This document shows positions 3,414 through 49,238 of a stretch of 64,000 bases of DNA, in pieces; position 1 is the stretch's first letter; each line of letters opens with the position of its first letter. The notes under the pieces were generated by a model that did not search any database, was not told where the DNA came from, and worked only from the letters and a program-made list of their open reading frames with translations. The DNA lies in NCBI GenBank assembly GCA_017480785.1, contig JAFURZ010000010.1, positions 62,001 to 126,000 on the forward strand, in the 5' to 3' direction. A program made the position numbers and the translations under genes. This stretch comes from Bacteroidales bacterium (lineage in GTDB: Bacteria > Bacteroidota > Bacteroidia > Bacteroidales > P3).

Positions 3414-3448
3414 TTTAGTGTTTAACGTTCAACGTTTCCCGTTCAAAA
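3414..3448. repeat. 7-bp-period array between exbB and the membrane gene
   Basis: Five degenerate heptamers in register (TTTAGTG, TTTAACG, TTCAACG, TTTCCCG, TTCAAAA) occupy the exbB-to-next-gene junction (3395-3458). It belongs to the same class of array found at many other junctions in this window. Confidence 0.7.
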
Positions 3449-3458
3449 GAGAAAGCAA

Positions 3459-4274
3459 TTATTTGTGATACTTCACGAGGATGTCCATGAAGCTGATGCT
3501 GCCGTCTTCCATCTGGTCGACGAGGCTCTCAATCTTGGTGAGGATGTAGTTGTAGAAAATCTGGAGGATGATGGCGACGATCAGACCGAAGATAGTCGTC
3601 AACAGAGCCACTTTCATACCGCCAGCCACGACGGTCGGGCTGATATCACCGGCGACTTCGATGTCATCGAAGGCCTGCACCATGCCGACCACAGTGCCGA
3701 GGAATCCGAACGAAGGAGCCAGGGCGATGAACAGGCCAATCCACGTGAGGTTATTCTCCAGGCGGGCCATCTGCACACCACCATAGCTGGTGACGGCTTT
3801 CTCGACGTTCTCCAGACCCTGGTCGACGCGGTCGAGGCCTTGGTAGAAGATGCTGGCCACGGGGCCACGGGTATTGCGGCAGAGTTCTTTGGCGCCCTCG
3901 TAGTTGCCGCCCTTGACGTTGTCCTCAATGCCTTCGAGGAGCTTCTTGACGTTGGAGGTGGCCATGTTCAGGTAGAGGATGCGCTCGATAACCAGTGCCA
4001 TGCCGAAGATAAGGCAGAGGAGCACGGGGGTCATCCAGCCGGCACCACCCTGGATGTACTTCTCTTTCAGTACCTGGTGGAACGACTTGGTGTCGTCGGC
4101 GGCAGCAGCGGCAGCCTCCTCCACGGGAGCGGCTTCCTCCACAACGGCCTCATCGGTGGCTTCAGCGACCTGTTCTGTAGCTTCGGCAGCGGGTTGATCC
4201 TGTGCCTTCACGTCATTGAAATTGGCAAATGTCAACAGTCCGACTATTGACATCAAAGCAAATACTTTTTTCAT
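3459..4274 (-). CDS. exbB: ExbB/TolQ/MotA-family proton channel
   Basis: The channel-forming subunit that couples proton flow to TonB or Tol motion in the inner membrane. The 271-residue protein has a signal-like N-terminus (1-24, ending DVKA), then an Ala/Glu-rich periplasmic segment (about 26-62). Three membrane segments typical of MotA/TolQ/ExbB follow, near 80-97, 174-200 and 219-243. The region LAPSFGFLGTVVGMVQAF is the conserved channel helix motif of the family. It is the first gene of the operon with a membrane protein and two exbD genes, and it has a good Bacteroidetes promoter upstream. The acidic, alanine-rich extension is longer than in proteobacterial ExbB. Confidence 0.92.
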   Translation of the reverse strand: MKKVFALMSIVGLLTFANFNDVKAQDQPAAEATEQVAEATDEAVVEEAAPVEEAAAAAADDTKSFHQVLKEKYIQGGAGWMTPVLLCLIFGMALVIERILYLNMATSNVKKLLEGIEDNVKGGNYEGAKELCRNTRGPVASIFYQGLDRVDQGLENVEKAVTSYGGVQMARLENNLTWIGLFIALAPSFGFLGTVVGMVQAFDDIEVAGDISPTVVAGGMKVALLTTIFGLIVAIILQIFYNYILTKIESLVDQMEDGSISFMDILVKYHK

Positions 4275-4337
4275 GATGTTTTTAGTGTGTTGATTATTAA
4301 TTTATTGTTTATAATTTACCTATTTTTGTTTGTTGTG

Positions 4338-4369
4338 CAAATATACATCTTTTTTCTTACGTAGTCAAA
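4338..4369 (-). promoter_or_regulatory. Promoter of the exbB operon
   Basis: On the minus strand a -7 box TATATTTG (4338-4345) is preceded by a -33 box TTTG (4366-4369) with a 20-bp spacer, matching the Bacteroidetes sigma-ABfr consensus. Transcription would start roughly 60 bp upstream of the exbB ATG. Confidence 0.75.
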
Positions 4370-4375
4370 AAAAAG

Positions 4376-5359: not shown

Positions 5360-5364
5360 AAGTA

Positions 5365-6486: not shown

Positions 6487-6562
6487 TAACGAGACGATGT
6501 TTTTTTTATTGTGTCCTCCGACGGAATACTTTTTCCCCTGAACGGAGGCATATTATATATTT

Positions 6563-6596
6563 TTTGTTCCACTATTAATATTTTTTAGTATCTTTG
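6563..6596 (+). promoter_or_regulatory. Promoter of aguB
   Basis: A -7 box TATCTTTG (6589-6596) has a candidate -33 TTTG at 6563-6566 (22-bp spacer, slightly long). It lies just upstream of the aguB ATG at 6610, so the transcript leader is very short. Confidence 0.65.
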
Positions 6597-6609
6597 CACC
6601 CTCAAACCA

Positions 6610-7485: not shown

Positions 7486-7497
7486 CACCTCGCTTTT

Positions 7498-8604
7498 ATG
7501 ACACCCAAAGAACAAGGCTACTACATGCCCGCCGAGTGGACCCGCCACGAGGCCACATGGCTCACCTATCCCAAGAACCCCGACTCGTGGCCGGGCAAGC
7601 TCGAGTCCATCTACCCCTCGTACCACCTCTTCGTGAAGACCCTCGCCGAGGGTGAAATGGTGCACGTCAATGTCGACGACGAGTCCATGCGCACCCATGT
7701 GGCCCGCGAGCTGGAGGCCATCGGCACCGACATGCAGCACATCAGCCTGCACCTCATCCCCAGCAATGACGCCTGGTGCCGCGACCATGGCCCCGCCTTC
7801 CTGCTCAATAGGCAAGACCCTGCACGGCGGGCCATCGTCAACTGGAACCACAACGCCTGGGGCGGCAAATACCCCTACGAGCTGGATACCGAGGTGCCCG
7901 TTCGCATCTTTGAAGAGATTGAAAATTTAAAATTGAAAATTGAAAATTCGGTTGACGCATCAAATAATTTTCAATTCTCAATTTTCAATTTTCAATTGTT
8001 TAACCCCGGTATCGTCATGGAGGGTGGTTCCATCGACGTCAATGGCTGCGGCGACCTGCTGACGACCACCTCCTGCCTCCTCAACCCCAACCGCAACCCC
8101 CAGCTCAACCAGGACCAGATTGAAACCTACCTGCGCGACTACTACGGCGTCGACAACATCATCTGGCTGGGCGACGGCATCGTCGGCGACGACACCGACG
8201 GCCATGTCGACGACCTCAGCCGCTTCGTCGGCGACGACACCATCATCACCGCCGTCGAGGAAGATGTCTGGGACGAGAACTACGAACCCCTGCAGAAAAA
8301 CCTCAAGATGCTGCAGCGCTGCCGCCTTGCCAACGGCAAGCAGCCCACCATCGTCGAGCTCCCCATGCCCGACGTGGTCTTCTACGACGGCCAGCGTCTC
8401 CCCGCCTCCTATGCCAACTTCTACCTGGCCAATGGCAAGGTTATCTTCCCCACCTACCGCTGCCTCACTGACAACGAGGCCGCCTACATCCTCGAAGCCT
8501 GCTTCCCCGACCGCGAGGTCGTCGGCATCGACTCCACCGACATCATCTGGGGCCTCGGCTCCTTCCACTGCCTCAGCCAACAGATGCCGGCGGTTAAGGT
8601 TTAA
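7498..8604 (+). CDS. aguA: Agmatine deiminase with an in-frame repeat insertion
   Basis: A peptidylarginine-deiminase-family enzyme converting agmatine to N-carbamoylputrescine, which the neighbouring AguB then cleaves. Family motifs include NDAWCRDHGPAF (about 88-99), PGIVMEGGSIDVNG (about 170) and the C-terminal GSFHC with the catalytic Cys near 358. At 368 residues it is longer than is usual for the family. The excess is an AT-rich insertion of about 27 residues (roughly 141-167, DNA 7921-7998), made of 7-bp repeats in inverted orientation, just before PGIVMEGGS. The stop codon (8602-8604) lies inside a second heptamer array. The insertion sits in a linker between motifs, so activity is probably kept. 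Confidence 0.92.
   Translation: MTPKEQGYYMPAEWTRHEATWLTYPKNPDSWPGKLESIYPSYHLFVKTLAEGEMVHVNVDDESMRTHVARELEAIGTDMQHISLHLIPSNDAWCRDHGPAFLLNRQDPARRAIVNWNHNAWGGKYPYELDTEVPVRIFEEIENLKLKIENSVDASNNFQFSIFNFQLFNPGIVMEGGSIDVNGCGDLLTTTSCLLNPNRNPQLNQDQIETYLRDYYGVDNIIWLGDGIVGDDTDGHVDDLSRFVGDDTIITAVEEDVWDENYEPLQKNLKMLQRCRLANGKQPTIVELPMPDVVFYDGQRLPASYANFYLANGKVIFPTYRCLTDNEAAYILEACFPDREVVGIDSTDIIWGLGSFHCLSQQMPAVKV
7921..7998. repeat. Intragenic inverted 7-bp-period array in aguA
   Basis: Four heptamers of the GAAAATT type (7921-7948) and four of the TTTTCAA type (7968-7995), separated by 19 bp, form an inverted repeat inside the aguA reading frame. Unit 2 is TAAAATT rather than GAAAATT. In the aguA frame this turns what would be a TGA stop into TTA. 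Confidence 0.85.
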
Positions 8605-8634
8605 AGTTTAAGGTTTAAAGTTTAAGGTTTAAAG
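8593..8634. repeat. 7-bp-period array at the aguA-protease junction
   Basis: Six heptamers alternate TTTAAGG and TTTAAAG. The aguA stop codon (8602-8604) lies in the second unit, and the ATG of the next gene (8638) follows the last unit by 3 bp, so the array is the whole junction. Confidence 0.85.
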
Positions 8635-8637
8635 TCT

Positions 8638-10242
8638 ATGACTATCAAATCTATTGTACGTTTATTTGTCTGCGTCAGCATAATTTTCAATTTTCAATTT
8701 TCAATTCTCAATTCAGCCCAGGCCCAGCGGCCTGTCATTCCCGACACCGTCAGCGCCGGCCAGCTGCGCGTCGACGAAGTGATGCGCCTCATCGACGGCA
8801 ACTACACCGAGACGCCCGACATGGACCGCCTCGGCGAGGAGGCCGTCAAGGCCATGCTCAAAAACCTCGACCCGCACAGCGTCTACATCCCCGCCAAGGA
8901 CGTGGCGCGCGCCAACGAAGGCCTCCAGGGCAACTTCGAGGGCGTAGGCGTCTCGTTCCAGATAGTCAACGACACCATTGTCGTCCAGAGCGTCATCGAC
9001 GGAGGCCCCTCCGAGAAGGTGGGCATTATGATTGGCGACAAGTTCATCCGCATCGACGGCATCGACGCCACCGGCGACAGCGCCCGTAACGACTTCGTCT
9101 TCCGCCACCTGCGCGGCAAGAAAGGCACCACCGTCGTCGTCGACGTCCTGCGCCAGGGAACCGTCTACTCCTTCCACATCGTCCGCGACAAGATACCCCT
9201 CTACAGCATCGACACCTACTTCATGGCCAACGACACCGTGGGCTACATACGCCTCGTCCGCTTCGCCCGTACCTCGGTCGACGAGTTCCGCAAAGCCCTC
9301 CGCAGCCTCCGCAAGCAAGGCATGACGGCCCTCATCCTCGACCTGCGGGGCAACAGCGGCGGCTACCTCGACATCGCCCACGGCCTGGCCAGCGAGTTCC
9401 TCGAGCGCGGCCAGCTCGTCGTCTACCAGGAAGGGCGCCGCACCCCCCGCCAGAACTACCGTGCCCACGGACGCGGCAACTTCCGCGAGGGCTCCCTCGT
9501 CGTCCTCATCGACGAGACCTCCGCCTCGGCCAGCGAAATCGTCAGCGGCGCCATACAGGACTGGGACCGCGGCACCATCGTAGGCCGCCGCTCCTTCGGC
9601 AAAGGACTCGTCCAGCGCATGTTCCCACTCGCCGACGGTGGCCAGGTGCGCCTCACCACGGCCCGCTACTTCACACCCAGCGGCCGCTGCATCCAGCGCC
9701 CCTACGACGACGGTGAAGACGCCTACCGCCAGGACCTCAACAACCGTTACCGTCACGGTGAGCTCGTCAACGCCGACTCCATCCACTTCGCCGACTCCCT
9801 CAGCTTCCGCACCGCCCGCGGCCGTGTCGTCTATGGCGGCGGCGGCATCATGCCCGACGTCTTCGTGCCCATGGACACCATGCGCCTCTCCGACTACTAC
9901 ATCTCCCTGCGCGGCAAGGGGCTCCTCAACAGCTTCCCCCTCCAGTGGGCCGACCAGCACCGCAAAGACCCGCGCGTGAAGTCCTTCGAGCTCTTCCTCG
10001 AGAACTACGACTCCTTCGGCCTCGACAGCCTCCTCACCGCCGCAGCCCTCGAGAAGGGTGTGGTGCGCGACCTGGAGAAGGAAGCCCTCGAGCCCGAACG
10101 CACCGCCCACAGCGACCGCTACCTCTGGCTCATGCTCAAGGCACAGGTGGCCCGCAACCTCTTCGGCGTCGACTACTACTACAAGGTGATGAAAGACATC
10201 GACGACGGCTACCAGACCGCCCTGGAGCAGTTCGCCCGCTAG
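8638..10242 (+). CDS. C-terminal processing protease (S41 family), exported
   Basis: A 534-residue periplasmic serine protease of the Prc/CtpA type. A signal peptide (1 to about 29, ending SAQAQ) is followed by an N-terminal helical region, a PDZ domain (about 85-155, GVGVSFQIVNDTIVVQSVIDG) and the S41 catalytic core. The core has LDLRGNSGGYL, the Ser of the SASASE motif (about 295-299) and Lys322 in RSFGKGLVQ. It would cleave unfolded or tagged proteins from their C-termini. The hydrophobic part of the signal peptide (IIFNFQFSILNS) is encoded by a 7-bp repeat array (8684-8711). It sits 33 bp after aguA, separated only by another array, so it is probably co-transcribed though functionally unrelated. 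Confidence 0.92.
   Translation: MTIKSIVRLFVCVSIIFNFQFSILNSAQAQRPVIPDTVSAGQLRVDEVMRLIDGNYTETPDMDRLGEEAVKAMLKNLDPHSVYIPAKDVARANEGLQGNFEGVGVSFQIVNDTIVVQSVIDGGPSEKVGIMIGDKFIRIDGIDATGDSARNDFVFRHLRGKKGTTVVVDVLRQGTVYSFHIVRDKIPLYSIDTYFMANDTVGYIRLVRFARTSVDEFRKALRSLRKQGMTALILDLRGNSGGYLDIAHGLASEFLERGQLVVYQEGRRTPRQNYRAHGRGNFREGSLVVLIDETSASASEIVSGAIQDWDRGTIVGRRSFGKGLVQRMFPLADGGQVRLTTARYFTPSGRCIQRPYDDGEDAYRQDLNNRYRHGELVNADSIHFADSLSFRTARGRVVYGGGGIMPDVFVPMDTMRLSDYYISLRGKGLLNSFPLQWADQHRKDPRVKSFELFLENYDSFGLDSLLTAAALEKGVVRDLEKEALEPERTAHSDRYLWLMLKAQVARNLFGVDYYYKVMKDIDDGYQTALEQFAR
8684..8711. repeat. 7-bp-period array encoding the protease signal-peptide core
   Basis: Four heptamers (TTTTCAA three times, then TTCTCAA) translate as part of a period-7 peptide FNFQFSI that supplies the hydrophobic core of the downstream protein's export signal. 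The same peptide appears in the aguA insertion. Confidence 0.85.
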
Positions 10243-10361
10243 CGGGGTGTGTTGTCTTTTTTTAGCTTCCTGCGGCGTCCTGACAAGGACGCCGCACTTG
10301 CTTTCCTATCCACTCAATATGTCAAACAACGCTCGTCCGATGTCGTCCACCGGACGGCCTC

Positions 10362-10477
10362 CAATATAAGGCCGTTTTGCCGAAAACCGCAAAATCGACC
10401 CACAATAGTACCCAACTTTCCCACAAAAGTACCTGACTTTCCCACACCGCCCACTTCCCCTCTAGCCGTCGAAAAAG
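10362..10477 (+). repeat. Dispersed ~115-bp intergenic repeat, copy 2
   Basis: Same element as 1632-1744 (inverted) and 57733-57848. It contains GGCCGTTTTGCCGAAAACC, the AAAATCGACCCAC core, two ~21-bp CCCAC-nAAAGTACC units and the CCGCCCACTTCCCC end. It lies in the 431-bp gap before the large T9SS gene. Apart from the promoter the rest of that gap shows nothing recognisable. Confidence 0.85.
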
Positions 10478-10566
10478 CATAATTTCCACTCCCTTTCTGC
10501 GCCAGCCCTCGCCCTTTCTTTCAAAAAAAATGATAAATGAACGACCGCTATATTGATTTTTTTTCA

Positions 10567-10574
10567 TATCTTTG
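10567..10574 (+). promoter_or_regulatory. -7 box upstream of the large T9SS cargo gene
   Basis: TATCTTTG followed by GCACCG matches the Bacteroidetes -7 consensus. No good -33 box is seen at the usual distance. It predicts a leader of about 95 nt before the ATG at 10674. Confidence 0.55.
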
Positions 10575-18070: not shown

Positions 18071-18125
18071 GCTGTTCTTTTAGAAAAGTAAAAGAACAGT
18101 AAAAGAACAGCAAAAGAACAACCGT
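18071..18125. repeat. Hairpin repeat of 11-bp units (GCTGTTCTTTTA type)
   Basis: GCTGTTCTTTTA (18071-18082) pairs with TAAAAGAACAGC (18100-18111). The unit AAAAGAACAGT/C recurs at 11-bp steps. Related elements are at 47791-47845 and 28835-28887. It lies between the T9SS gene and pruA. Confidence 0.8.
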
Positions 18126-18153
18126 AGTTAATTACCAGAATGTTGGCTTCATT

Positions 18154-18219
18154 TCGACTTGAGTTCGACTTGAACTCAAGTCGAACTCAAGTCGAACTCA
18201 AGTCGAACTCGAGCCGAAC
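18154..18219. repeat. Six-unit 11-bp palindromic repeat (TCGACTTGAAC type)
   Basis: Two 11-bp units in one orientation (TCGACTTGAGT, TCGACTTGAAC) are followed directly by four in the other (TCAAGTCGAAC three times, TCGAGCCGAAC). They can fold into a hairpin or transcribed stem. The rest of the gap up to pruA holds only the promoter. Confidence 0.85.
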
Positions 18220-18312
18220 TCATATAGAAATCAGGGGGTTGGCTGCTGTCGGAGGGAAGCTTGCGGGGAGAGGTTGACGAGTGGTTGAAAACTTTTCGTC
18301 CACGAATGGAAA

Positions 18313-25365: not shown

Positions 25366-25839
25366 TTAAAACAGTATCCAATAAAGCAGTGCACATACCA
25401 GCAGGGCGTACAGCATGATGCGGCCTGCCGGTATGGGTTTCATGTAGTCGGTGTCGCTCACGTCGAAGCGACGTTTAATCTTGCTCCCTCTCTTCTTGAA
25501 TTCGTTCAGGCGTTCGCCGGTACCCTCCTCGTCGGTCTGGGCGAAGCGAGGCTGGTAGTTGAAGGTGGGCATCTCGCGTTTGCGGAAGGCGTCCTTCCAG
25601 GTGAGCCCCTTGTGCCGTTCCTCGCGGTCCAGTTCACGCACGCGCCGCTCGAAATACTCCAACTCGTCCTCCGTTCTCCGTTCACCGTTCTCCACTCTCC
25701 ACTCTCCACTTTCCGTTTCCCGTTCCCTGTTCTCGTCGGCATACTTCTGCTTCAGCGCCTCCCAACGCTCCTTCTCGGGGTCGTAGAAGCGCGGGCGATA
25801 GCGGAACTGGCGCGGCTTGGGGGTGTAGAACATCGGCAT
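25366..25839 (-). CDS. Hypothetical C-terminally anchored protein with repeat insertion
   Basis: A 157-residue, highly charged protein with one hydrophobic helix at the extreme C-terminus (about 139-157, [19 protein letters not shown]), suggesting a tail-anchored inner-membrane protein. The N-terminus [20 protein letters not shown] and a later NYQPRF repeat share an Arg/Tyr/Pro pattern, as does the small Bacteroidetes family it resembles. The middle (about 36-56) is encoded by nine 7-bp repeats (25671-25733, 63 bp, exactly 21 codons), producing an Arg/Glu-rich segment. It lies between the 5-FTHF cyclo-ligase and panD genes (13-bp and 4-bp gaps). Function unknown. Confidence 0.7.
25671..25733. 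repeat. Intragenic nine-unit 7-bp array
   Basis: Nine degenerate heptamers (CCGTTCT, CCGTTCA, CCACTCT and variants) total 63 bp, an exact multiple of 3, and lie in frame in the hypothetical gene on the minus strand. Confidence 0.85.
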
Positions 25840-26881: not shown

Positions 26882-27064
26882 TGTTATTTATTATTTATTT
26901 CTAATTACCAACGAATTGTCCCCCTTTTGGGGGGATTTTCAAGTCTACAAAAATAGGAAATAATCCCGACATGGCCAAATATTTTTTATCAACACATCGG
27001 GAAACCGCCATAGGGAGGGCGTGCTCACCTTAACGTATAAACCTCAAACAGTACCCCTTAAACT

Positions 27065-27106
27065 GTAAACCGTAAACCGTAAACGGTAAACAGTAAACGG
27101 TAAACT
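27065..27106. repeat. Six-unit 7-bp array at the end of a T9SS gene
   Basis: Six GTAAACN heptamers directly abut the next gene. The first two bases of the minus-strand stop codon (27105-27107) are the last two bases of the array. The remaining 180 bp up to the DUF3127 gene show nothing clear. Confidence 0.85.
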
Positions 27107-28926: not shown

Positions 28927-29019
28927 GGGGCTTGCGTGCTTCGGGGGTGGATTCGGGGTGTCGGGAGGCGGAAATCAAATTTATTTTCGGGTGGTGGCAA
29001 TAAAAACCGGAAGGGTGCG

Positions 29020-29061
29020 TTTAATGTTTATTGTTTACGGTTTACTGTTTACTGTTTACGG
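29020..29061. repeat. Six-unit 7-bp array upstream of a hypothetical gene
   Basis: Heptamers TTTAATG, TTTATTG, TTTACGG and TTTACTG in register, 45 bp before the ATG at 29107. The rest of the gap holds the compound hairpin and the divergent promoter. Confidence 0.85.
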
Positions 29062-29106
29062 TTTTAATACAATATAGTTTGAAGTATTAGAAAATCTGGA
29101 TTTGGA

Positions 29107-30075
29107 ATGAGCTATAGAAGGGGTGTTATAATGTTGCTGATGCTGGCGGCGTGCGTGGCTGCGATGGGGCAGGACAAGGGCCGCATGGCTGCGCACGAGC
29201 GGCGCCTGTCGGAGTTGTTGGAACGCACCGCTTCGGCACCGACCGACAACGAGCGCTATCTGGCCTCGGAGGAGGCCGTCGACGCGCTGCGCGACGCGCT
29301 GGACGAGGCCGGGTCGGAGCGCTGGCGGTGGACGCTGCCGCGGTCGGCATCGGTGCTGACGTCGCCCGACGGGCGGCTGCGGGTGTTCACGTGGGCCGTG
29401 GTGCGCGACAACGGCGAGTTTGAGTGCTTCGGGGCCGTGCAGTTCTTCAACGAGCGGACACAGGCCTACGAGTACGAGGTGCTGCACGACAAGAGCGAGG
29501 AGATTATGAACCGCGAGGAGAGCCTGCTCTCGGCCGGCAACTGGCTGGGGGCCATCTATCAGGACATCATACAGACCACGGCGGGCGACCGCACGTACTA
29601 TACGCTCCTGGGCTGGAACGGAGTGGACAACCTGACCGACCGCCGCATCATAGAGCCCGTGATGATGCGGGCCGGGGTGCCGCAGTTCGGTGCGCCGGTG
29701 TTCCGCCGCGAACGCAACCTGCGGCGCGTGGTGCTGGAGTATCGCGGCGACGCGGCGGTGCAGATGGCCTGGGACGAGCAGACGGTGGAGGAGGTGACGC
29801 GCGAGCGGGTGAAGGAGAACGGCCGCTACCGCACCGTGGAGAAGCGCAAGGAGCACAAGGAGAAGGTGATTATCTTCGACGAGGTGGAGCCCCAGATTGA
29901 AGGCATGGAAGGGCTGTTCCAATACTATGTGCCGTCGGGTCTGGAGCTGGGCTATGCCTGGGTGGACGGCAAATGGGAGCTGCGCCACGGGGCGCAGGGT
30001 CGCCTGACCGACAAGAAACTGAACAAGTCTTTCGCGCCGCTGCCGAAGGCTGCGCCAAGTTACGAATATAAGTGA
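29107..30075 (+). CDS. Exported hypothetical protein
   Basis: A 322-residue protein with a signal peptide (1 to about 21, MSYRRGVIMLLMLAACVAAMG). A Cys at 16 sits in LAACVA, so a lipoprotein is conceivable though the lipobox is imperfect. The mature part is hydrophilic, with a helical N-terminal region (about 25-70) and a mixed C-terminal region with phrases such as NWLGAIYQDIIQ and TYYTLLGWNGVDN that recur in Bacteroidales hypothetical proteins. Function unknown. It is co-directional with dxs. The stop codon lies in the first unit of a heptamer array that runs up to the dxs start. Confidence 0.65.
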   Translation: MSYRRGVIMLLMLAACVAAMGQDKGRMAAHERRLSELLERTASAPTDNERYLASEEAVDALRDALDEAGSERWRWTLPRSASVLTSPDGRLRVFTWAVVRDNGEFECFGAVQFFNERTQAYEYEVLHDKSEEIMNREESLLSAGNWLGAIYQDIIQTTAGDRTYYTLLGWNGVDNLTDRRIIEPVMMRAGVPQFGAPVFRRERNLRRVVLEYRGDAAVQMAWDEQTVEEVTRERVKENGRYRTVEKRKEHKEKVIIFDEVEPQIEGMEGLFQYYVPSGLELGYAWVDGKWELRHGAQGRLTDKKLNKSFAPLPKAAPSYEYK

Positions 30076-30151
30076 ATGGTGATTAGTGAATAGTGAAATG
30101 TGAATAGTGATTAGTGAATAGTGAAAAGTGAATAGTGATTAGTGAATAGAG
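30071..30151. repeat. Eleven-unit 7-bp array bridging a stop and the dxs start
   Basis: Eleven heptamers of the AGTGAAT/AGTGATT/AGTGAAA type fill the whole junction. The upstream stop codon (30073-30075) is inside unit 1, and the dxs ATG at 30152 follows the last full unit by 4 bp. Confidence 0.9.
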
Positions 30152-32026
30152 ATGAGACTGAAAGATATTGACTCGCCTGCCGACTTGAAGCGGGTGCCTG
30201 TGGACGAGCTCCAAGGCATCGCCGACGAGCTGCGCGGGTATATTATAGACACCCTCTCGACCCACCCCGGCCATCTGGCTTCGAGCCTCGGGGTGGTGGA
30301 GCTCACGGTGGCGCTGCACTACGTGTTCAACACCCCCGACGACCGCCTGGTGTGGGATGTGGGCCATCAGGCCTACGCCCACAAGATATTGACGGGCCGA
30401 CGGGAGCGCTTCTCGACCATACGCACCTATGGCGGCTTGAGCGGCTTCCCGAAGAGGAGCGAAAGCGAGTATGACGCTTTCGGCACGGGCCACAGCTCGA
30501 CGTCGGTGAGTGCGGCGCTGGGCATGGCCACGGCGAGCCGGCTGCAGGGCGATGTGCACCGCAACCACATTGCCGTCATCGGCGACGGGGCCCTGACGGG
30601 AGGCGAAGCCTTCGAGGCGCTGAACAACGTTGGGCAGTCGAGGGCCAATGTGCTGATTGTGCTGAACGACAACGGCATCTCGATAGACAAGGCTGTGGGG
30701 GGCTTGGACGAGTACCTGACGCGGCTCACCGCCTCGCGGCGCTACAACCGGCTGAAGGCCGAGGTGTGGCGCAAGCTGGACGGCAGCGCCGGCGGCCGGC
30801 GCCACGACCGTTCGCTGGGTTTCTTCCAGCGGATGACCAATATGGCCAAAACCATGTTCGTGGGCGGGAGCAACCTGTTCGAGTCGCTGGGCATCCGCTA
30901 TTTCGGCCCCATCGACGGACACAACCTGCCGCAGCTGGTCGACATGCTGGGGCGGCTGCGCGACCTGGAGGGGCCCAAGCTGCTGCACATCGTCACCACC
31001 AAAGGCAAGGGGTTGCGCCAGGCAGAGCAGAACCCGGTGGTCTACCACGCCCCCGGACGCTACGATGCGCACACGGGTAAGCAAATCGCCACGGCGGTGG
31101 ACGGCTGTCCGCCCCGCTATCAGGAGGTCTTCGGTCACACCCTCGTGGAGCTGGCCGAGCAGAACCCCGCCATTGTGGGCATCACGCCGGCAATGGCCAC
31201 GGGGTGCTCGCTGAACCTGATGATGGAGCGCATGCCCGACCGGACGTTCGACGTGGGCATCGCCGAGCAGCATGCGGTCACGTTCTCCGCGGGACTTGCC
31301 GCGGCGGGGATGCTCCCGTTCTGCAATATCTATTCGTCCTTTGCCCAGCGGGCCTACGACCAGATAATCCACGACGTGGCGCTGCAGCGGCTGCCGGTGG
31401 TGTTCTGCCTCGACCGGGCAGGGCTGGTGGGCGACGACGGACCGACCCATCACGGCCTGTTCGACTTGGCAGCCTTGCGGCCTGTGCCCAACCTCACCGT
31501 ATGTGCTCCGATGGACGAGCACGAGCTGCGCAACATGATGTACACCGCCCAGCTGCCCGAGGGAGGTCCGTGGGTGATACGCTATCCGCGGGGCGCGAGC
31601 GAGCACGCTGACTGGCAGACGCCCTTCGAGACCCTCGCCGTGGGGCGGGGCCGCTGCCTGAGAGAGGGCAGGGGCGAGGTGGCTATTGTCACCCTCGGCA
31701 CCGTGGGCAACGATGCACTGCGAGTGGCCGACGAGGTGGATGCCGCCATGTACGACATGCGCTTCCTGAAGCCGCTCGACACCGGGCTGCTGGACGAGAT
31801 AGCGGCCCGCGGCTACCGTCGCATCGTCACCGTGGAAGACGGCGTGCGCCTCGGCGGCTTCGGCGAGGCGGTGGTGGATTACTTCGCCGCCAGGCACCCG
31901 GAGGTGGTGCAGGCATGCCGCATACTGGCCATCCCCGACGAGTTTGTCACGCACGGCCCTGTGGCACAGCTGAAGCACGACTGTCGCATTGACGCCGACG
32001 CAATCAGGGAAGAGGTTAGGGTTTAA
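30152..32026 (+). CDS. dxs: 1-deoxy-D-xylulose-5-phosphate synthase
   Basis: First enzyme of the MEP isoprenoid pathway, joining pyruvate and glyceraldehyde 3-phosphate with thiamine diphosphate. The 624-residue protein has HPGHLASSLGVVELTVALHY, the ThDP and Mg site GDGALTGGEAFEALNN to LNDNGISID, the transketolase-like middle domain with DRAGLVGDDGPTHHGLFD, and the C-terminal domain. Length is standard. Start and stop are both set in heptamer arrays: the array ahead of it ends 4 bp before the ATG, and the TAA (32024-32026) falls in the array that leads to the carrier gene. It supplies precursors for the polyprenyl synthase at 4.4 kb. Confidence 0.95.
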   Translation: MRLKDIDSPADLKRVPVDELQGIADELRGYIIDTLSTHPGHLASSLGVVELTVALHYVFNTPDDRLVWDVGHQAYAHKILTGRRERFSTIRTYGGLSGFPKRSESEYDAFGTGHSSTSVSAALGMATASRLQGDVHRNHIAVIGDGALTGGEAFEALNNVGQSRANVLIVLNDNGISIDKAVGGLDEYLTRLTASRRYNRLKAEVWRKLDGSAGGRRHDRSLGFFQRMTNMAKTMFVGGSNLFESLGIRYFGPIDGHNLPQLVDMLGRLRDLEGPKLLHIVTTKGKGLRQAEQNPVVYHAPGRYDAHTGKQIATAVDGCPPRYQEVFGHTLVELAEQNPAIVGITPAMATGCSLNLMMERMPDRTFDVGIAEQHAVTFSAGLAAAGMLPFCNIYSSFAQRAYDQIIHDVALQRLPVVFCLDRAGLVGDDGPTHHGLFDLAALRPVPNLTVCAPMDEHELRNMMYTAQLPEGGPWVIRYPRGASEHADWQTPFETLAVGRGRCLREGRGEVAIVTLGTVGNDALRVADEVDAAMYDMRFLKPLDTGLLDEIAARGYRRIVTVEDGVRLGGFGEAVVDYFAARHPEVVQACRILAIPDEFVTHGPVAQLKHDCRIDADAIREEVRV

Positions 32027-32055
32027 GGTTTAAAGTTTAGGGTTTAAAATTAAAG
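32014..32055. repeat. Six-unit 7-bp array bridging dxs stop and the carrier start
   Basis: Heptamers GTTTAAG, GTTTAAA, GTTTAGG and ATTAAAG run in register. The dxs TAA lies inside the second unit and the ATG at 32056 immediately follows the last unit. Confidence 0.9.
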
Positions 32056-33462: not shown

Positions 33463-34322
33463 TACTCCTGCTGCTGCCGGCGTCGCTTCATGCGCAGGAC
33501 AGCAGTTATGCGCGGCGCGTTATCCGCGACCTGTCGGCGCCGGAGATGTATGGCCGCGGCATGCAGCACCGGGGCGACTCCATCGCCGCCGACTACCTGC
33601 GCCGCGAGCTGATGGCCAACGGGGTGAAGCCCCTCGGCAAGGACTACTACCAGTACTTCCGTTTCCCGCAGACGCGGACCCGTCCACCCATTGTGCGTGC
33701 CGGCTACCGCTCGCAGAACGTATGCGGCTACATACCGGGCGAGACCGACACCATGGTGGTTTTCACTGCCCACTATGAGCACTTGGGCATGCACGGTGAC
33801 ACACTCTTCCCCGGCGCCCACGACAACGCCAGTGGCACCGCCGCTATAATGGACCTGGCAAGACAACTATCCACTACCCACTCTTCACTACCCACTAAAT
33901 ATACCTATGTCTTCCTGTTCTTCGGAGGCGAGGAGTCGGGGTTGGTGGGCAGCCATTACTTTGCCGACAATCCCCTTGTAAGCTTTGCCAAGGTGAAACT
34001 TCTCGTCAACCTGGACCTCTTCTGCGGTGGCGACGAAGGCTTGATGGTGGTCAATGCCAATGACCGTGAGACACAGCCTTTTGTCGACCTACTGCAACAG
34101 ATTAACGAGCGCGACGGATACACCCCCAAGATAGGGCGTCGCGACAATGCCCCCAACAGCGACCATTACTGGCTCAGCGCCCATTGCCCTGCCATCTTCA
34201 TCTACACCCTCGGCGGCCCCTACGGCGGCTACCACAGCCCCACCGACACCTGCGACGGGTGCGGCCTGGGTAACTACCACCGCCACATGACCCTCCTGCG
34301 GGCTTTCCTGGAACAGCTTTGA
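33438..34322 (+). CDS. Exported M28-family metallopeptidase
   Basis: A zinc aminopeptidase-type enzyme of 294 residues. The ATG at 33438 gives a short signal peptide (MVRPAWILILLLLPASLHAQ, cleavage after HAQ) and overlaps the carrier gene by 25 bp. Two-metal site residues are visible: His in FTAHYEHLGMHG, Asp in GAHDNASGTAA, GluGlu in FGGEESGLVGSHYF, Asp in NLDLF and His in GGYHSPTDT. In-frame 7-bp repeats (33866-33900) encode the segment STTHSSLPTK between the DNASG and GGEES motifs, at a surface loop position. A role in periplasmic peptide degradation is likely. Confidence 0.88.
   Translation: MVRPAWILILLLLPASLHAQDSSYARRVIRDLSAPEMYGRGMQHRGDSIAADYLRRELMANGVKPLGKDYYQYFRFPQTRTRPPIVRAGYRSQNVCGYIPGETDTMVVFTAHYEHLGMHGDTLFPGAHDNASGTAAIMDLARQLSTTHSSLPTKYTYVFLFFGGEESGLVGSHYFADNPLVSFAKVKLLVNLDLFCGGDEGLMVVNANDRETQPFVDLLQQINERDGYTPKIGRRDNAPNSDHYWLSAHCPAIFIYTLGGPYGGYHSPTDTCDGCGLGNYHRHMTLLRAFLEQL
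33866..33900. repeat. Intragenic 7-bp array in the M28 peptidase gene
   Basis: Five heptamers (ACTATCC, ACTACCC, ACTCTTC, ACTACCC, ACTAAAT) translated without stops in the loop between two metal-site motifs. Confidence 0.75.
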
Positions 34323-34912: not shown

Positions 34913-35830
34913 TTAATTATTGTTCATTCTTTTTCTGAGGTAAAGGATGGCGTCGATGTTGCGGGGCACCTGCAGGTCGAGGGTGCCGCTGACGATGCCG
35001 ATGACGTGGCCTTCGCGGACAGCGCGGAGGGTGTTGTAGGGCTTCATGCCGACGAATGCCGCCGAGTCCTCACGTCGCACGATGATGTAGTCGGGGTCTT
35101 CCTTGACGAGGGCTTCGAGGCTGTAGCTCCACCCTTCGACCTCCTCGGCGATATTGCGTCCGCCGGCCATGCGGATGATGTCGTTGATGAAGGTATTGCC
35201 GCCGGCGGTGAAGTTGCCGCCGGGGCCGTAGCCCACGACGTAGTAGCAAGAGGCCGGTTGAGAGTTGAAAGTGGATGGCGAGGTGTCGGTCAACAGACTT
35301 TCCACTTTCCGCTTTAAACTTTCCACTAGAGAGTCGGCCTCGCGCTCCTTGCCCACCAGGCGGCCTATGGCACTGATATTGTCGTAGAGGGCGTCGAAAC
35401 GGGGCTTCTCCACCACGCATACCATCGGGGTGCCCATCTGGTCCATCTGGTCGGTCACCTTCTTGCCCACCATCGAGCCGCTGATGACCAGGTCGGGGTT
35501 GAGCGACAGAATCTTTTCAATGTTGAGGTTGCTGATGCCGCCGATGGAAGGGATGCCGGCCGCCTCGGGAGGGAACTCGCAGAAGTCGGTGCGCCCCACG
35601 AGGATGTCGTCGGCCCCGAGGGCGAACATGATTTCCGTCACGGCAGGGGAGAGCGATACCACGCGGGTGGGGGAGGCGGGCACCACCACCGTGCGGCCGT
35701 AGTCGTCGGTGACGGTGTCGGTAGCGGCCTCTTGACGGGGAGCTCCGCCGCAGGCGGCAAACAACAAGGCAATCCCTAACAGAAAAACCGTAAACCGTAA
35801 ACCGTAAACCGTAAACCCTGACTTACGCAT
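34913..35830 (-). CDS. Substrate-binding lipoprotein, BtuF/FepB-like, with repeat-derived signal peptide
   Basis: A periplasmic binding protein of the cobalamin and iron-siderophore class (305 residues). The lipobox LLFAACGG places the lipidated Cys near residue 27. The mature part has the fold's hallmarks: RVVSLSPAVTEIMFALGADD, SNLNIEKILSLNPDLVI and the long central helix, ending in a domain with YIIVRREDSAAF. Most of the signal peptide (FTVYGLRFTVF) is translated from five 7-bp repeats (35784-35818). A second inverted heptamer set (35257-35331) is in frame in the mature part. No permease or ATPase gene is adjacent, so the substrate cannot be assigned. It overlaps fabG by 8 bp. Confidence 0.88.
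   Translation of the reverse strand: MRKSGFTVYGLRFTVFLLGIALLFAACGGAPRQEAATDTVTDDYGRTVVVPASPTRVVSLSPAVTEIMFALGADDILVGRTDFCEFPPEAAGIPSIGGISNLNIEKILSLNPDLVISGSMVGKKVTDQMDQMGTPMVCVVEKPRFDALYDNISAIGRLVGKEREADSLVESLKRKVESLLTDTSPSTFNSQPASCYYVVGYGPGGNFTAGGNTFINDIIRMAGGRNIAEEVEGWSYSLEALVKEDPDYIIVRREDSAAFVGMKPYNTLRAVREGHVIGIVSGTLDLQVPRNIDAILYLRKRMNNN
35257..35331. repeat. Inverted intragenic 7-bp array in the BtuF-like gene
   Basis: Three units of the GTTGAAA/GTGGATG type (35257-35277) and five of the ACTTTCC/GCTTTAA type (35297-35331) lie in opposite orientation around a 19-bp centre, the same design as the aguA insertion. They encode a variable stretch after the central helix. Confidence 0.7.
35784..35818. 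repeat. 7-bp array encoding a lipoprotein signal peptide
   Basis: One AAAAACC and four GTAAACC heptamers. On the coding (minus) strand the unit GGTTTAC has no stop in any frame and gives the period-7 peptide FTVYGLR. Confidence 0.85.
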
Positions 35831-36596
35831 CTTCCATTCCTCCGCAGATGGGCAGCACCACGCTGGTGATGTAGGGGCACATGTCGCTGGCCAGGAAGAG
35901 GCATGCCTGCGCCACCTCGTCGGCCTTGCCGGGACGCTTCATGGGGATGCGGCTGCACCAGGTATCCATCAGCTCTTTCGGTATGTCGGCCGTCATCTCG
36001 GTCTCGACGAAGCCGGGGGCCACCACGTTGACGCGTATGTTACGCGCGGCAAACTCCTTGGCGCAGCTCTTGCTGAAGCCTATGATGGCGGCCTTGGAGG
36101 CGGCATAGTTGGCCTGGTTGTAGTTGCCGGCGATGCCGACCACCGAGCCGATATTCACGATGGAACCGTGCCCCTGGCGCCACATGACGGGTTGCACGGC
36201 TTTGGTCATGCAGAACACCGAGCCGAGGTTGGTGTGCATCACGCGGTCCATCTGTGCCTCGGTCATGCGCTTCACGGCGGCGTCGTCGGTGATGCCGGCG
36301 TTGTTGACCAGTATGTCGATGCCGCCGAAGTCGGCCATCACCTCCTTGACGAAGGCCTGCGCCGAATCATAGTCGGCCACATCGCAGGCGTAGCCCTTGG
36401 CCTTCGGAGTGGCGAGTGGCGAGTGGAGAGCGGAGAGTATGCCGTTCAGCTCCTGCTCCACCGCCTCCATGGCGGCGTTGCGGCTGCGGCCGCAGAAAGC
36501 CACGTTGCAACCCTCGCGGGCGAACCGTACAGCAATAGCGTGACCGATGCCACGAGTGGCACCGGTCACGATTGCAGTCTTATTTTCCAATAGCAT
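35823..36596 (-). CDS. fabG: 3-oxoacyl-[acyl-carrier-protein] reductase
   Basis: A short-chain dehydrogenase of 257 residues for fatty-acid elongation. It has the NADPH motif TGATRGIGHAIA, the NNAGIT motif, Ser in VNIGSVVG and the YAASK active site (NYAASKAAIIGFSK), and a C-terminus with FVETEMT and the typical PITSV-type end. ATG 36596 starts 1 bp from the gapA stop. A longer open frame upstream overlaps gapA and was discarded. An in-frame 7-bp repeat (36408-36442) adds SALHSPLATP between the second beta strand and the CDV motif, making it slightly longer than typical FabG. Confidence 0.92.
   Translation of the reverse strand: MLLENKTAIVTGATRGIGHAIAVRFAREGCNVAFCGRSRNAAMEAVEQELNGILSALHSPLATPKAKGYACDVADYDSAQAFVKEVMADFGGIDILVNNAGITDDAAVKRMTEAQMDRVMHTNLGSVFCMTKAVQPVMWRQGHGSIVNIGSVVGIAGNYNQANYAASKAAIIGFSKSCAKEFAARNIRVNVVAPGFVETEMTADIPKELMDTWCSRIPMKRPGKADEVAQACLFLASDMCPYITSVVLPICGGMEDA
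36408..36442. repeat. Intragenic 7-bp array in fabG
   Basis: AGTGGCG twice, AGTGGAG, AGCGGAG and AGTATGC in register. Read on the minus strand it has no stop and lengthens a loop. Confidence 0.75.
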
Positions 36597-36597: not shown

Positions 36598-37690
<1,093 letters not shown>

Positions 37691-38683: not shown

Positions 38684-38781
38684 CCTCCGCCATTTTAACG
38701 GTAGTATTACGGTAGTATTACGGTAGTATTACGCTTTTAAAGCGTAATACTACCGTAATACTAGCGTTAAAATGGCGGAGG
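38684..38781. repeat. 98-bp hairpin with 11-bp repeat units between xerD and ppdK
   Basis: Outer arms of about 17 nt (CCTCCGCCATTTTAACG and its complement) enclose three direct 11-bp units (ACGGTAGTATT) on the left, a central ACGCTTTTAAAGCGT palindrome, and two complementary units on the right with one mismatch. It could terminate xerD transcription. Related sequence appears at 28853-28913. Confidence 0.85.
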
Positions 38782-41654: not shown

Positions 41655-41670
41655 ACAAAACAAAATAACT

Positions 41671-43296: not shown

Positions 43297-43305
43297 TAGG
43301 ACAAC

Positions 43306-44814: not shown

Positions 44815-44835
44815 TAAACAATAATATATATACAC

Positions 44836-47685: not shown

Positions 47686-47704
47686 CCGCTGCTTCAACTA
47701 TCAA

Positions 47705-47736
47705 AGAAGGCCGTGATTGCGAAATCACGGCCTTCT
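47705..47736 (+). terminator. Intrinsic terminator of gcvP
   Basis: Perfect 14-bp stem (AGAAGGCCGTGATT, 47705-47718, with its complement 47723-47736) closed by a GCGA tetraloop and followed by CTTTTCTTG. It starts 20 bp after the gcvP stop. Confidence 0.9.
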
Positions 47737-47790
47737 CTTTTCTTGTCTTTCCCTTGCTGAAAACCACTCCTGATTATCAGCTGTTTAAAT

Positions 47791-47845
47791 GCTGTTCTTT
47801 TACTTTTCTAAAAGAACAGTAAAAGAACAGCAGAAGAATAGTAAA
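47791..47845. repeat. Hairpin repeat of 11-bp units (GCTGTTCTTTTA type), second copy
   Basis: GCTGTTCTTTTA (47791-47802) pairs with TAAAAGAACAGC (47820-47831). Sequence closely matches 18071-18125. It lies between convergent gcvP and the SUI1 gene. Confidence 0.8.
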
Positions 47846-47895
47846 TGAATTGCTTGATAGACAGCGGTCTGAGATACCATGAAAAGGGGTGTCCG

Positions 47896-48222
47896 TCAGC
47901 AGCGGTAGCCGGCGGCAAGGAGGGCGGCACGCACTTTCTCCTGCTGGTCGCCCTGGATGATGATTTCGCCGTCCTTGGCCGAGCCGCCGACGCCGCATTT
48001 GCCCTTGAGCATGCGGCCCAGGGCCTGAAGGTCGTCGTCGGAGCCGACGAAGCCGGTGACAAGGGTGACGGTCTTGCCGCCGCGGTGATGGCGCTCCAGG
48101 CTGATGCGCAGGCGCTGCTTACCGGGAGCCAGGGTCTCGGCCTCGGGCTCGTCGTCGTATTGGTACTCGTAGTCGGGGTTGGTGCTGTAGACCACCCCGA
48201 CGGTGTGCTTCTTCTTGCTCAT
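47896..48222 (-). CDS. SUI1/YciH-family translation factor homolog
   Basis: A 108-residue protein of the SUI1 fold (eIF1/YciH family), thought to tune initiation fidelity. The basic loop HHRGGKTVTLVTGFVG and the end KCGVGGSAKDGEIIIQGDQQ are the family core. The N-terminal 30 residues are acidic and Tyr-rich (STNPDYEYQYDDEPEAE). The ATG at 48222 overlaps the stop of the lipid kinase gene by 4 bp (ATGA), so the two are translationally coupled. Confidence 0.9.
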   Translation of the reverse strand: MSKKKHTVGVVYSTNPDYEYQYDDEPEAETLAPGKQRLRISLERHHRGGKTVTLVTGFVGSDDDLQALGRMLKGKCGVGGSAKDGEIIIQGDQQEKVRAALLAAGYRC

Positions 48223-49178
48223 ATACGTGGAAGGGTTATGGGCTCGCCGGAGGGCTTGCGGACGATGAGTAGCTGGTTGAGGTCGCGTGCAAATACTTTG
48301 ACGGACTTGGGCTGGTTGACGAAGCGGACGGTGCGCCCCAGGTTGATGCCCTCGCCGTCGATGTCGACCCAACGGTCGGCGTTGCCCTCGATGACGACCT
48401 CGGTGGAGCGGAACATCTCGACATGCTGCGAGAGCTGCAGGTGGTTCGTGAGCAGCAACGGGGCGGTGAGGGGAAGGTGGTCGACGGGTATCTTGTCGAC
48501 GATGCTGATGTCGATGATGCCGTCGTCGAGGCGTGCAGTGGGCGACACGGGCATGCCGTATCCGATGCGGTCGCTGTTCTGCAGCGCTATAATCCAGGCT
48601 GTGCGGTGAAGGGTGCGGTTGTTGAGGTGGAGGGTGTAGTCCGTCTCGCGGTAGTTGTTGTAGGCCCGCAGGACGATGTTCGTGTAGCCCGTGAGGCCTC
48701 GCGTCTTGGCGGCCTGCATGAGTCGCGACACGTGCGCGTCGAACCCCACGCCGGCGGCGCCCACACACACGTACTGGGGGCTGTCGGCCTCGTCGCCGCT
48801 GATGAGGATGGAGTCGATGGTGAGCCGGTGTTGCTGGTTGAGGGCGCGGATGGCGAGCCAGGGCTGCATGGGGAGCTTGAGGGTGTAGGCCAAGCCGTTG
48901 CCGGAACCGCAGGGAATGATGCCGAGGGTGCAGTCCGTGCCGCGCAGCCCCTGGATGACGTCGTTGACCGAGCCGTCGCCACCCACGGCGACGACACAGT
49001 CGTAGCCCTGCATGGCTGCCTCGCGGGCCAGCTCGGTGCCGTGGTGGATGCGTTCGGTGTAGCGCACCTCGTAGTCGAACAGGTCGTGGTCGAGGTTCTG
49101 CTTCAGCAGCGTCTCTATCTTCTTCTGCTTGCCGACGCCCGAGATAGGGTTGACTATAAAGAGGGTCTTGGTTTTCAA
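48219..49178 (-). CDS. Diacylglycerol/lipid kinase family protein
   Basis: A 319-residue DAGK_cat-type kinase (YegS/DgkB family) that phosphorylates a lipid or sphingoid substrate. N-terminal FIVNPISGVGKQKKIE, the catalytic GGDGSVNDVIQGL and PCGSGNGLAYTL motifs, and the C-terminal domain with DDGIIDISIVDK are all family features. Bacteroidales make sphingolipids, so a sphingoid-base kinase is possible, but this sequence alone does not decide. The gene starts right after a heptamer array and is coupled to the SUI1 gene by a 4-bp overlap. Confidence 0.9.
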   Translation of the reverse strand: MKTKTLFIVNPISGVGKQKKIETLLKQNLDHDLFDYEVRYTERIHHGTELAREAAMQGYDCVVAVGGDGSVNDVIQGLRGTDCTLGIIPCGSGNGLAYTLKLPMQPWLAIRALNQQHRLTIDSILISGDEADSPQYVCVGAAGVGFDAHVSRLMQAAKTRGLTGYTNIVLRAYNNYRETDYTLHLNNRTLHRTAWIIALQNSDRIGYGMPVSPTARLDDGIIDISIVDKIPVDHLPLTAPLLLTNHLQLSQHVEMFRSTEVVIEGNADRWVDIDGEGINLGRTVRFVNQPKSVKVFARDLNQLLIVRKPSGEPITLPRI

Positions 49179-49182
49179 AATC

Positions 49183-49238
49183 TGTTTACTGTTTACTGTT
49201 TACTGTTTACGGTTCTCCGTTCTCCGTTTTCCGTTGTT
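49183..49238. repeat. Eight-unit 7-bp array between two genes
   Basis: TGTTTAC four times, then GGTTCTC, CGTTCTC, CGTTTTC and CGTTGTT, in register. It fills the junction. The last unit touches the stop codon of the GldB-like gene (49238-49240) and the lipid-kinase ATG (49178) is 5 bp from the first unit. Confidence 0.9.

Follow-up and report, generated by a model that had tools for sequence, protein, structure and literature searches.

The heptanucleotide repeats of cyanobacteria are known as STRR. Here we describe tandem arrays with a period of 7 bp in the draft genome of a Bacteroidales bacterium (GCA_017480785.1), starting from a window of 64,000 nucleotides (contig JAFURZ010000010.1, positions 62,001 to 126,000; "the window" below means this whole stretch), and we find that they are probably small dispersed hairpin elements, copied to many places in this Bacteroidales genus. 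One family of such elements, here called F1, is a 25-codon insert with AGTGGGT arms. An earlier reading of the window from its sequence (the original prediction) had listed fourteen arrays with an exact 7-bp period, at gene junctions and inside genes.

To the extent of the excerpted text of the papers cited here and below, short hairpins inserted in frame into unrelated conserved genes have been described as Rickettsia palindromic elements (RPE) and as coding palindromes of Wolbachia (PMC2229807, PMC10969869, PMC2996958). RPE measure 105-146 bp (PMC2229807) and end in CGTC, with smaller RPE kinds also being mentioned (PMC3733652). Intragenic GTAG/CGTC REPs form inserts of 20-30 amino acids, are often dimers, and have as hosts uvrA, uvrB, UvrD-type, tRNA synthetase and pseudouridine synthase genes; different REPs were described at about the same recB site in two Xanthomonas, and CGTC repeats are reported in Bacteroidetes too (PMC3733652). 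PARCEL repeats are 25-residue repeats in tandem tracts and are associated with membrane proteins (PMC2996958). As for heptamers, GGGAATC repeats occur in Xanthomonas, with pairs in opposite orientation (PMC4692102), the LSSR of Mrazek 2007 are cited as heptanucleotide repeats, and TAACTGA repeats are found in Beggiatoaceae and five Bacteroidetes, including Paludibacter (PMC4679880). A heptamer excess was thus already on record, which qualifies the remark in the original prediction that it knew of no named equivalent in Bacteroidales. In the open-licence literature that we searched with a few queries, we found no report of heptad-armed coding hairpins with changing units at fixed loops in Bacteroidales.

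Materials and Methods

The window is C1:62001-126000 of a draft genome of 2,250,901 bases in 19 contigs, which is 92% complete; period counts for this genome cover 818,655 of these bases, the window included. The genus sample consisted of 99 genomes, this one among them, with one genome per species, and array comparisons are those between species. G-codes denote genomes, L-codes loci, and C-codes contigs of the genome under study. Arrays in the window were read directly and then scored by TRF and by a period scan against 10 dinucleotide shuffles, with a threshold score of at least 14. By DXS protein, the nearest named records belong to draft Bacteroidales/Bacteroidetes genomes; a roe deer rumen record ranks first (71% identity), followed by RUG13410 (66%), and these matches suggest that the host may be a rumen-type gut bacterium. 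Type IX secretion tails and GldB in the window agree with Bacteroidales.

Results

The period scan found 13 period-7 segments in the window and none in each of the 10 shuffles; four arrays had a period of 11, and periods 5, 8, 10 and 13 gave no segment in the same scan. Across 818,655 bases of the genome there were 99 period-7, 94 period-11, 14 period-9 and 10 period-18 arrays, and, multiples of 7 and 11 aside, no other period exceeded 6; three first-order Markov sequences of equal length held no period-7 and no period-11 array. The same two peaks were seen in the genus, both in 30 loci, one of them from this genome (period 7, 20; period 11, 15; period 10, 3; others at most 2 apart from multiples), and in 20 stretches from 20 genomes (period 7, 45; period 11, 30; period 8, 13; periods 9 and 10, 4 each). 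The examined stretches of G046, G048, G028, G092, G066 and G065 had period 11 without period 7, and that of G015 had neither. Other periods were favored in single stretches (L137, L149, L154), with four period-8 arrays in G067, four in G035, and four period-10 arrays in G086. Among other Bacteroidota (80 loci, 1.41 Mb), period 7 was again the commonest with 34 arrays, as compared with 12 of period 8, and period 11 was rare (6); the period-7 density was about fivefold lower per base than in the genome under study, and 5 of 31 period-7 clusters lay inside open reading frames (ORFs).

Period-7 arrays are thus far above the level of shuffled sequence, and the zero counts in shuffles and Markov sequences rule out chance or composition as their source. 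Coding periodicity is ruled out as well, because the periods favored by coding constraint would be multiples of 3, unlike the pattern seen. Twelve of the fourteen arrays originally listed match segments of the scan, whereas two are weak (33866-33900, match fraction 0.64; 35257-35331, 0.51). That the period is always 7 is true of the listed arrays, but the second class, the four period-11 arrays of the window, had been passed over.

When printed with their flanks, many arrays proved to have an inverted counterpart on the far side of a short core, and the unit is therefore a hairpin. Paired elements as called span 67-129 bp; two single arms folded alone gave 0 and -0.1 kcal/mol, that is, no hairpin. 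The cores GGTTGACGCAT and TGCGTCAGCC recur with different arms, and CGTC was seen only in AATTGAA/AGTGGAA elements, inside their core. An open frame of 50 amino acids on both sides was present for 14 of 20 period-7 pair calls (13 of 18 places, since two places were counted twice), 31 of 65 single period-7 arrays, 5 of 55 single period-11 arrays and 0 of 20 period-11 pairs, as compared with 300 of 400 random 80-bp intervals. The period-7 elements are those found in genes, yet they are found there no more often than random DNA. A further inverted pair, about 150 bp apart at C1:6161/6342, was considered as an invertible (phase-switch) segment.

F1 elements measure 75-76 bp and have AGTGGGT arms and a core about CGNGGTCAA; their outer heptads, AGTGGGT/ACCCACT, are terminal inverted repeats, with ends AGTG and CACT. 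A 32-residue F1 query gave 142 matches in the genome under study, many of them other frames or antisense views of the same places. A shorter query of 25 residues (E 1e-5) detected F1 in 13 of the 99 genus genomes; of the 63 rows, 4 antisense rows were removed, leaving 59 sense rows. All 50 stop-free sense rows lie in open frames of 188-1869 amino acids, whereas none of the 9 sense rows containing a stop has an open frame longer than 47. Of the 50, 19 belong to the genome under study, where the F1 peptide sits without a stop in open frames 252-1869 amino acids long. A looser scan of the sampled part of this genome gave 29 places, of which 22 lie in ORFs and 3 lie elsewhere, the other 4 being antisense views; the right arm is read in one same frame at 21 of the 22 ORF places, the exception being L202, where it is in another. 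Among 295 genomes of the order, a match was found only in the genome under study.

Codon 5 of F1 would be TAG in a perfect array, and TAG is kept at or near this codon in the five of nine stop-bearing copies that were read out. In 29 distinct ORF copies from 9 genomes, codon 5 is GAG in 19 and CAG in 10; this set, being limited to copies with stop-free frames of 60 amino acids on both sides, cannot show a stop, and the contrast in stops rests on the genus-wide rows and the read-out copies instead. The consensus of the 29 copies over 25 codons is V[GDC]SG[EQ][CW]VV[DG]S[TS]RGQ.LPTTHYPLPT, preceded by A in every copy, and their arms pair at 22-29 of 30 positions. Codon changes were tilted towards synonymous ones, with 87 nonsynonymous (N) and 65 synonymous (S), an N/S ratio of 0.59 of expectation (p 0.0015, although the copies share history and are not independent). 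The nrdD copy folds with a z of -6.3. F1 copies share arms and core across unrelated genes and species. Whereas the original prediction spoke against one transposed sequence, one subset of the arrays consists of copies of one dispersed 25-codon sequence that have their core in common, and many arrays are hairpin arms, which is beyond what tandem growth alone yields. Ribosomal bypass of the hairpin was rejected for F1, whose gene copies are in frame and stop-free, because bypass would not need such copies.

Host genes with matches above curated profile cut-offs were RadA, DapF, RdgB/HAM1, LeuS, NrdD, UvrC, IleS, MetK, dihydroorotase, MiaA, TruA and ValS. A RarA-type ATPase and a TcdA/ThiF-type protein fell below NCBIfam cut-offs, UvrA (partial sequence) and a LacZ-type protein were also below cut-offs, and UvrD/PcrA-type, Methyltransf_4, PNGase F-type, A2M-type and radical SAM hosts were named by Pfam-level match. 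The MetK and TcdA inserts have other heptads (AGTGGAA, AATTGAA) and a TGCGTCAGCC/GGCTGACGCA core; the remaining 19 named hosts carry F1. Eleven of these 19 are DNA-repair (5) or tRNA (6) genes, a count made without a background comparison; one of the six is PF02390, which we take to be a tRNA methyltransferase. In comparisons with solved structures, the IleS insert sits in an alignment gap against 8c8w, and the match of MetK to 7r2w breaks off on either side of the insert. In the rarA-type gene (L127:769-895), the F1 insert has been enlarged in frame by a partial tandem self-duplication (17 codons by peptide). Near the F1 inserts of uvrA (C7:18548, L123) and radA (C7:59259, L124) there is a second insert, LTPGPSPNGEG / LTSGPSPMGEG, which in uvrA is encoded by a CCCCTCTCC...GGAGAGGGG palindrome.

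Empty sites were sought by DNA alignment of ten loci with 4 to 6 relatives each. All length differences between the genome under study and its relatives were divisible by 3, and the genome under study was longer than every relative except G068, which at radA was equal in length and shared the insert and at ileS was 24 bp longer, with an insert of its own. The gain was 75 bp in 4 of 4 relatives at nrdD, 75 bp in 4 of 5 at rdgB, 72 bp in 4 of 6 rows as printed at uvrC (two of these rows begin further upstream than the rest), and 57 bp in 4 of 5 relatives at ileS.

Six loops were compared across species. The ileS loop has AGTGGGT in the genome under study and AGTGTTC in G068; G022 has a half element there, G002 and G045 (L308/L307) carry 9-bp repeats (KDLKDAKDLKDM), G024 carries another repeat, and the loop is empty in G010, G072, G067, G018, G046 and G064. 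In dihydroorotase (pyrC), this genome, G068 and G024 have F1, G002 has AGTGATG arms around a GGTTGACGCAT core, and the loop is empty in G067 and G045. A gene with no profile name (C11:2568) carries AGTGGAA here, F1 in G022, G072 and G018, CAGCTNC heptads in G010, ACCTTTC in G045, and none in G064. The metK loop, for which DNA alone was used as the rows are out of codon register, holds heptads of three sequences in the genome under study, G068 and G024, a different palindrome in G072 (GAGCCGTTTCATGAAACGGCTC, L309), and none in five relatives. The truA loop is F1-type here and in G068, has AGTGTTT in G002, and has no clear element in G010, G067 and G018; that of valS is filled here and empty in G022 and G064. 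The orthologous loci thus vary strongly between species.

The window contains one such hairpin in a gene, made up as follows.

7498..8604, + strand: host gene of the hairpin, a Porphyromonas-type peptidyl-arginine deiminase (PAD) (protein and DNA comparison)
7918..7948, + strand: left heptad arm of the PAD hairpin insert, ATTGAAA units (TRF, period scan)
7949..7965, + strand: core of the insert, CGGTTGACGCATCAAAT (sequence reading, alignment)
7966..7997, + strand: right heptad arm, AATTTTC units, inverse of the left arm (TRF, period scan, fold)

The stretch 7921-7998, predicted as one array, therefore is two arrays in opposite orientation (7918-7948 and 7966-7997) around 17 bp. A protein search found the PAD gene in this genome and 13 relatives, and the segment is missing in all 13. 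In a DNA alignment with 12 of them (G048, with no upstream flank match, was left out), the in-frame gain is 63 bp against 11 relatives and 66 bp against G064. The insert reads IENLKLKIENSVDASNNFQFSIFNFQ and folds at -24.1 kcal/mol (z -6.4); where an in-frame TGA would fall, one unit of the left arm is ATTTAAA, not ATTGAAA. The best solved homologue, 1xkn, matches both flanks of the insert but not across it. From the core of this insert, GGTTGACGCAT recurs in the dihydroorotase insert of G002.

The 99 arrays fall into 28 unit classes, as compared with about 93 expected for random heptamers, the commonest units being AAAATTG and ACCCACT with 19 arrays each. Single-base steps join 27 of the 28 classes into one network with 40 edges (shuffled mean 12.4, max 20; the within-unit shuffle controls bias in unit composition in part only). 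In the 36 arrays of at least 5 units, mismatches cluster in few phases (sum of maxima 96 vs null 76.8, sd 3.5, max 90). The network and the phase bias agree with descent and spread of variants through arrays. The small number of unit classes, their network and the presence of different units at orthologous sites bear out the original proposal of a common generating process behind many unit sequences.

The other period-7 features of the window are these.

3406..3436, + strand: period-7 array between an ORF (2921-3394, - strand) and an ExbB-type gene (3459-4274, - strand) (period scan)
8594..8638, + strand: TTTAAGG array across the PAD stop codon and the junction to an S41 peptidase gene (period scan)
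8682..8714, + strand: AATTTTC array in the N-terminal region of the S41 peptidase gene (signal-peptide-like by eye)
25665..25732, - strand: CCACTCT/CGTTCTC array within an ORF (25366-25839, - strand) that is conserved in relatives (period scan)
27059..27105, + strand: TAAACCG array at the 3' end of a gene with a Type IX secretion tail (27105-28556, - strand) (period scan)
29019..29064, + strand: GTTTACT array upstream of an ORF (29107-30075, + strand) (period scan)
30072..30152, + strand: AGTGAAT array filling the junction as far as the dxs start (period scan)
32016..32046, + strand: GTTTAAG array across the dxs stop and the junction to a DcuC gene (period scan)
33866..33900, + strand: weak ACTACCC array inside an M28 peptidase gene (direct reading)
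35297..35327, + strand: weak period-7 stretch in a periplasmic binding protein gene (TRF)
35785..35817, - strand: AAACCGT array of the periplasmic binding protein gene, within its N-terminal region, which by eye is lipoprotein-signal-like, MRKSGFTVYGLRFTVFLL
36407..36437, - strand: GAGTGGC array inside a short-chain dehydrogenase gene (period scan)
49182..49235, + strand: CTGTTTA then CGTTCTC arrays directly downstream of the gldB stop (TRF, period scan)

Of the predicted array at 35257-35331, TRF detects 35297-35327 alone, and 49183-49238, listed as one array, is two adjoining arrays with different units. Junctions vary between species as loops do. At the PAD-S41 junction, arrays are present in G072, G062 and G067, and none is marked in ten relatives; in the N-terminal region of the S41 peptidase gene, G062 and G067 have similar arrays at the same place. 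The junction before the dxs start has other heptads in G067, G046 and G092, with none marked in the other relatives listed. Between dxs and dcuC there is TTTAAGG here, different heptads in G064, G068, G062 and G010, no heptads in G028 and G046, and other sequence in G048. Inside genes, the M28 peptidase site is 12 bp longer here than in 5 of 5 relatives listed, and the short-chain dehydrogenase site 27 bp longer than in 3 of 3.

The period-11 features of the window are as follows.

18082..18221, + strand: two period-11 arrays between ORFs, one of TAAAAGAACAG type and one a GTTCGACTTGA hairpin
38698..38767, + strand: period-11 hairpin with ACGGTAGTATT arms, member of a dispersed family (TRF)
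47809..47850, + strand: period-11 TAAAAGAACAG array upstream of an ORF (47845-48609) whose listed start it touches

Long hairpins are formed by period-11 pairs, for example three ACGGTAGTATT units, CTTTAAAAG and the inverse, with a fold of -65.5 kcal/mol. The ACGGTAGTATT palindrome has 17 full and 2 partial copies in 819 kb (e.g., 38698-38767, C1:10004, C4:9946 and C8:19836), most of them flanked by an outer CCTCCGCCATTTTA...TAAAATGGCGGAGG, and a G-to-C change in one arm is mirrored in the other in most copies with the change. TRF also found a 21-bp repeat unit of CCCACAAAAGTACCCAACTTT type in both orientations (1663-1710, 10399-10446, 57771-57817) and an 84-bp tandem repeat at 60932-61162 (2.8 copies, 93% matches). 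Several contigs of this genome end near heptad arrays (L119:51-190, L129:79-111, and both ends of L127), and the flank TCCTGAGCCAGGATCAAACTCTTC in L119 and L129 resembles the start of a 16S rRNA gene.

Discussion

The period-7 arrays of this genome are dispersed in part as a defined sequence, have the geometry of hairpins, occur in genes as in-frame, stop-free copies, and vary between species. We consider that they are probably small hairpin elements that have been copied to many places in the genus. Such an element has a heptad arm, a short core and an inverted heptad arm; it may be copied either by way of its hairpin when replication forks pass or by a transposase that acts in trans. Insertions into genes would persist only if they are stop-free, in frame and in a permissive loop, with selection removing those that break the gene. 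The arrays may then slip in 7-base steps, so that the unit drifts and spreads array-wide while period and pairing persist, and single arrays at junctions may be halves or remnants of elements, or may have grown locally from the same pool.

Several observations weigh against dispersed hairpins as the general explanation. Of the single period-7 arrays, 31 of 65 lie in open frames, and what ties the single arrays to the paired elements is their shared units. Several length gains are shorter than 75 bp (57 at ileS), and insertion is thus not always clean; either some host bases were lost or loop length differs anyway. The loops that take heptad inserts also hold other kinds of repeats (the GAGCCGTTTCATGAAACGGCTC palindrome, 9-bp repeats) and seem to accept repeated DNA of several kinds. 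G024 shares the F1 site in dihydroorotase although by DXS identity it is more distant (76%) than three relatives without F1 (G064, G067 and G010, 83-85%), which does not fit a simple single-insertion history and calls for allele transfer, site reuse or repeated loss. F1 is present in just 13 of 99 genus genomes and 1 of 295 genomes of the order, and the family is therefore narrow or lies below threshold elsewhere. No transposition was seen, and target duplication was unreadable at the ten loci, where relatives are too diverged.

Of the other explanations, local replication slippage alone, with heptamers arising and growing in place by 7-nucleotide steps and with pairs and shared units due to chance or composition, fares best, but we think it unlikely. 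The heptamer excess is general in Bacteroidota and there lies mostly outside ORFs, junction arrays at the same place have different units, and a 7-nucleotide slippage hypothesis is cited in the excerpted text of PMC4679880 and PMC4692102. However, slippage in place does not account for 25-codon F1 copies that share arms and core across unrelated genes and species, for units so much fewer than random (28 vs 93), or for the cores GGTTGACGCAT and TGCGTCAGCC recurring with different arms.

A second possibility, which we rate lower still, is that the arrays are REP-like elements mobilized by RAYT, a Y1 transposase. Y1_Tnp matches are present at three places in the genome under study, GTAG is seen by eye at each AGTGGGT junction, and intragenic REPs have been described in repair and tRNA genes (PMC3733652, in the text available). 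Among relatives, 2 of 5 Y1 loci have period-7 arrays, and because that of G002 (L279, 330-1153) has five within about 1.5 kb on either side of the gene, with one period-11 array also beside it, and that of G092 (L277) has one, we keep RAYT as a weak rival. On the other hand, the three own Y1 loci have no period-7 array, with one period-11 array there, and the Y1_Tnp matches, found in 13 of 20 genus genomes, do not closely follow the arrays: G064, G008, G061 and G093 have period-7 arrays and no Y1_Tnp match (in drafts that are 74-94% complete), and G046, G048, G092 and G065 have matches while their stretches have no period-7 array. Moreover, single arms do not fold, and F1 ends in AGTG/CACT, not GTAG.

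It is more improbable again that the arrays were selected for a function, either as sites for a heptamer-binding protein at junctions or as useful loops in repair and tRNA enzymes. The concentration of within-array mismatches in few phases, the low N/S ratio of the non-independent F1 copies, and the 11 repair or tRNA genes among 19 named F1 hosts (no background test) would be in keeping with such selection, but the phase bias is also expected from slippage spreading variants, many relatives lack an insert at these sites, and a given site carries different units in different species. An assembly artefact is hardly credible: although the genus genomes are in many contigs and several contigs here end close to arrays, the same elements recur at the same sites and in frame in separate genomes (radA, pyrC and truA in G068; pyrC in G024).

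Coding palindromes are known in Rickettsia, Wolbachia and some REP-rich genomes. This genus, with at least 99 genomes, allows a gene-by-gene comparison of filled, empty and re-filled sites in housekeeping proteins for which solved homologues exist. Dispersed hairpins with heptad arms also connect two puzzles that have stood apart, one about the surplus of heptanucleotide repeats in bacterial genomes and one about hairpins inserted in frame. We tentatively raise the possibility, itself open to considerable doubt, of a distinct class of self-dispersing DNA that inherits geometry and not sequence. Such a palindrome, with arms of period 7, would overwrite its own unit through concerted slippage and return, in one species after another, to those loops of essential enzymes that are permissive; many of these enzymes serve DNA repair or tRNA. 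A period of 7 suits such a palindrome because 7 is prime to 3: all frames of an array then share one set of seven codons, and a single base change can be enough to rid a frame of its stop.

The comparison with known systems is again with the excerpted accounts of them. Like LSSR, STRR, and the GGGAATC and TAACTGA repeats, the arrays described here are 7-bp tandem arrays far above chance, many at gene junctions and some in ORFs; unlike the studies of those repeats, which deal with one unit type that is mainly intergenic, what we find is a whole cloud of units together with a defined coding hairpin that has a core. PARCEL repeats share the property of palindromic DNA that codes for protein, but they form tandem tracts, whereas ours are single inserts in enzymes (PMC2996958). 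The terminal inverted repeats AGTGGGT/ACCCACT of F1 are a likeness to MITEs. With intragenic REPs, F1 has in common the size class of the insert, Uvr, UvrD, tRNA synthetase and pseudouridine synthase hosts, and the re-use of sites (PMC3733652); it differs in having no terminal GTAG and no hairpin in a single arm, and the link to RAYT, kept above as a weak possibility, is unsupported. As in RPE, the whole element forms a hairpin (z -6.3 and -6.4 for the nrdD and PAD copies) and is inserted in frame into unrelated conserved genes while being absent from homologues. Because F1, at 75-76 bp (67-129 bp for paired calls), lies outside the 105-146 bp of RPE (PMC2229807) and ends in AGTG/CACT rather than in the CGTC of RPE (PMC3733652) or the GTAG of REPs, we file it under neither family; it is set apart by size and end tags, and, from RPE, also by heptad arms that, at one site, have different units in different species.

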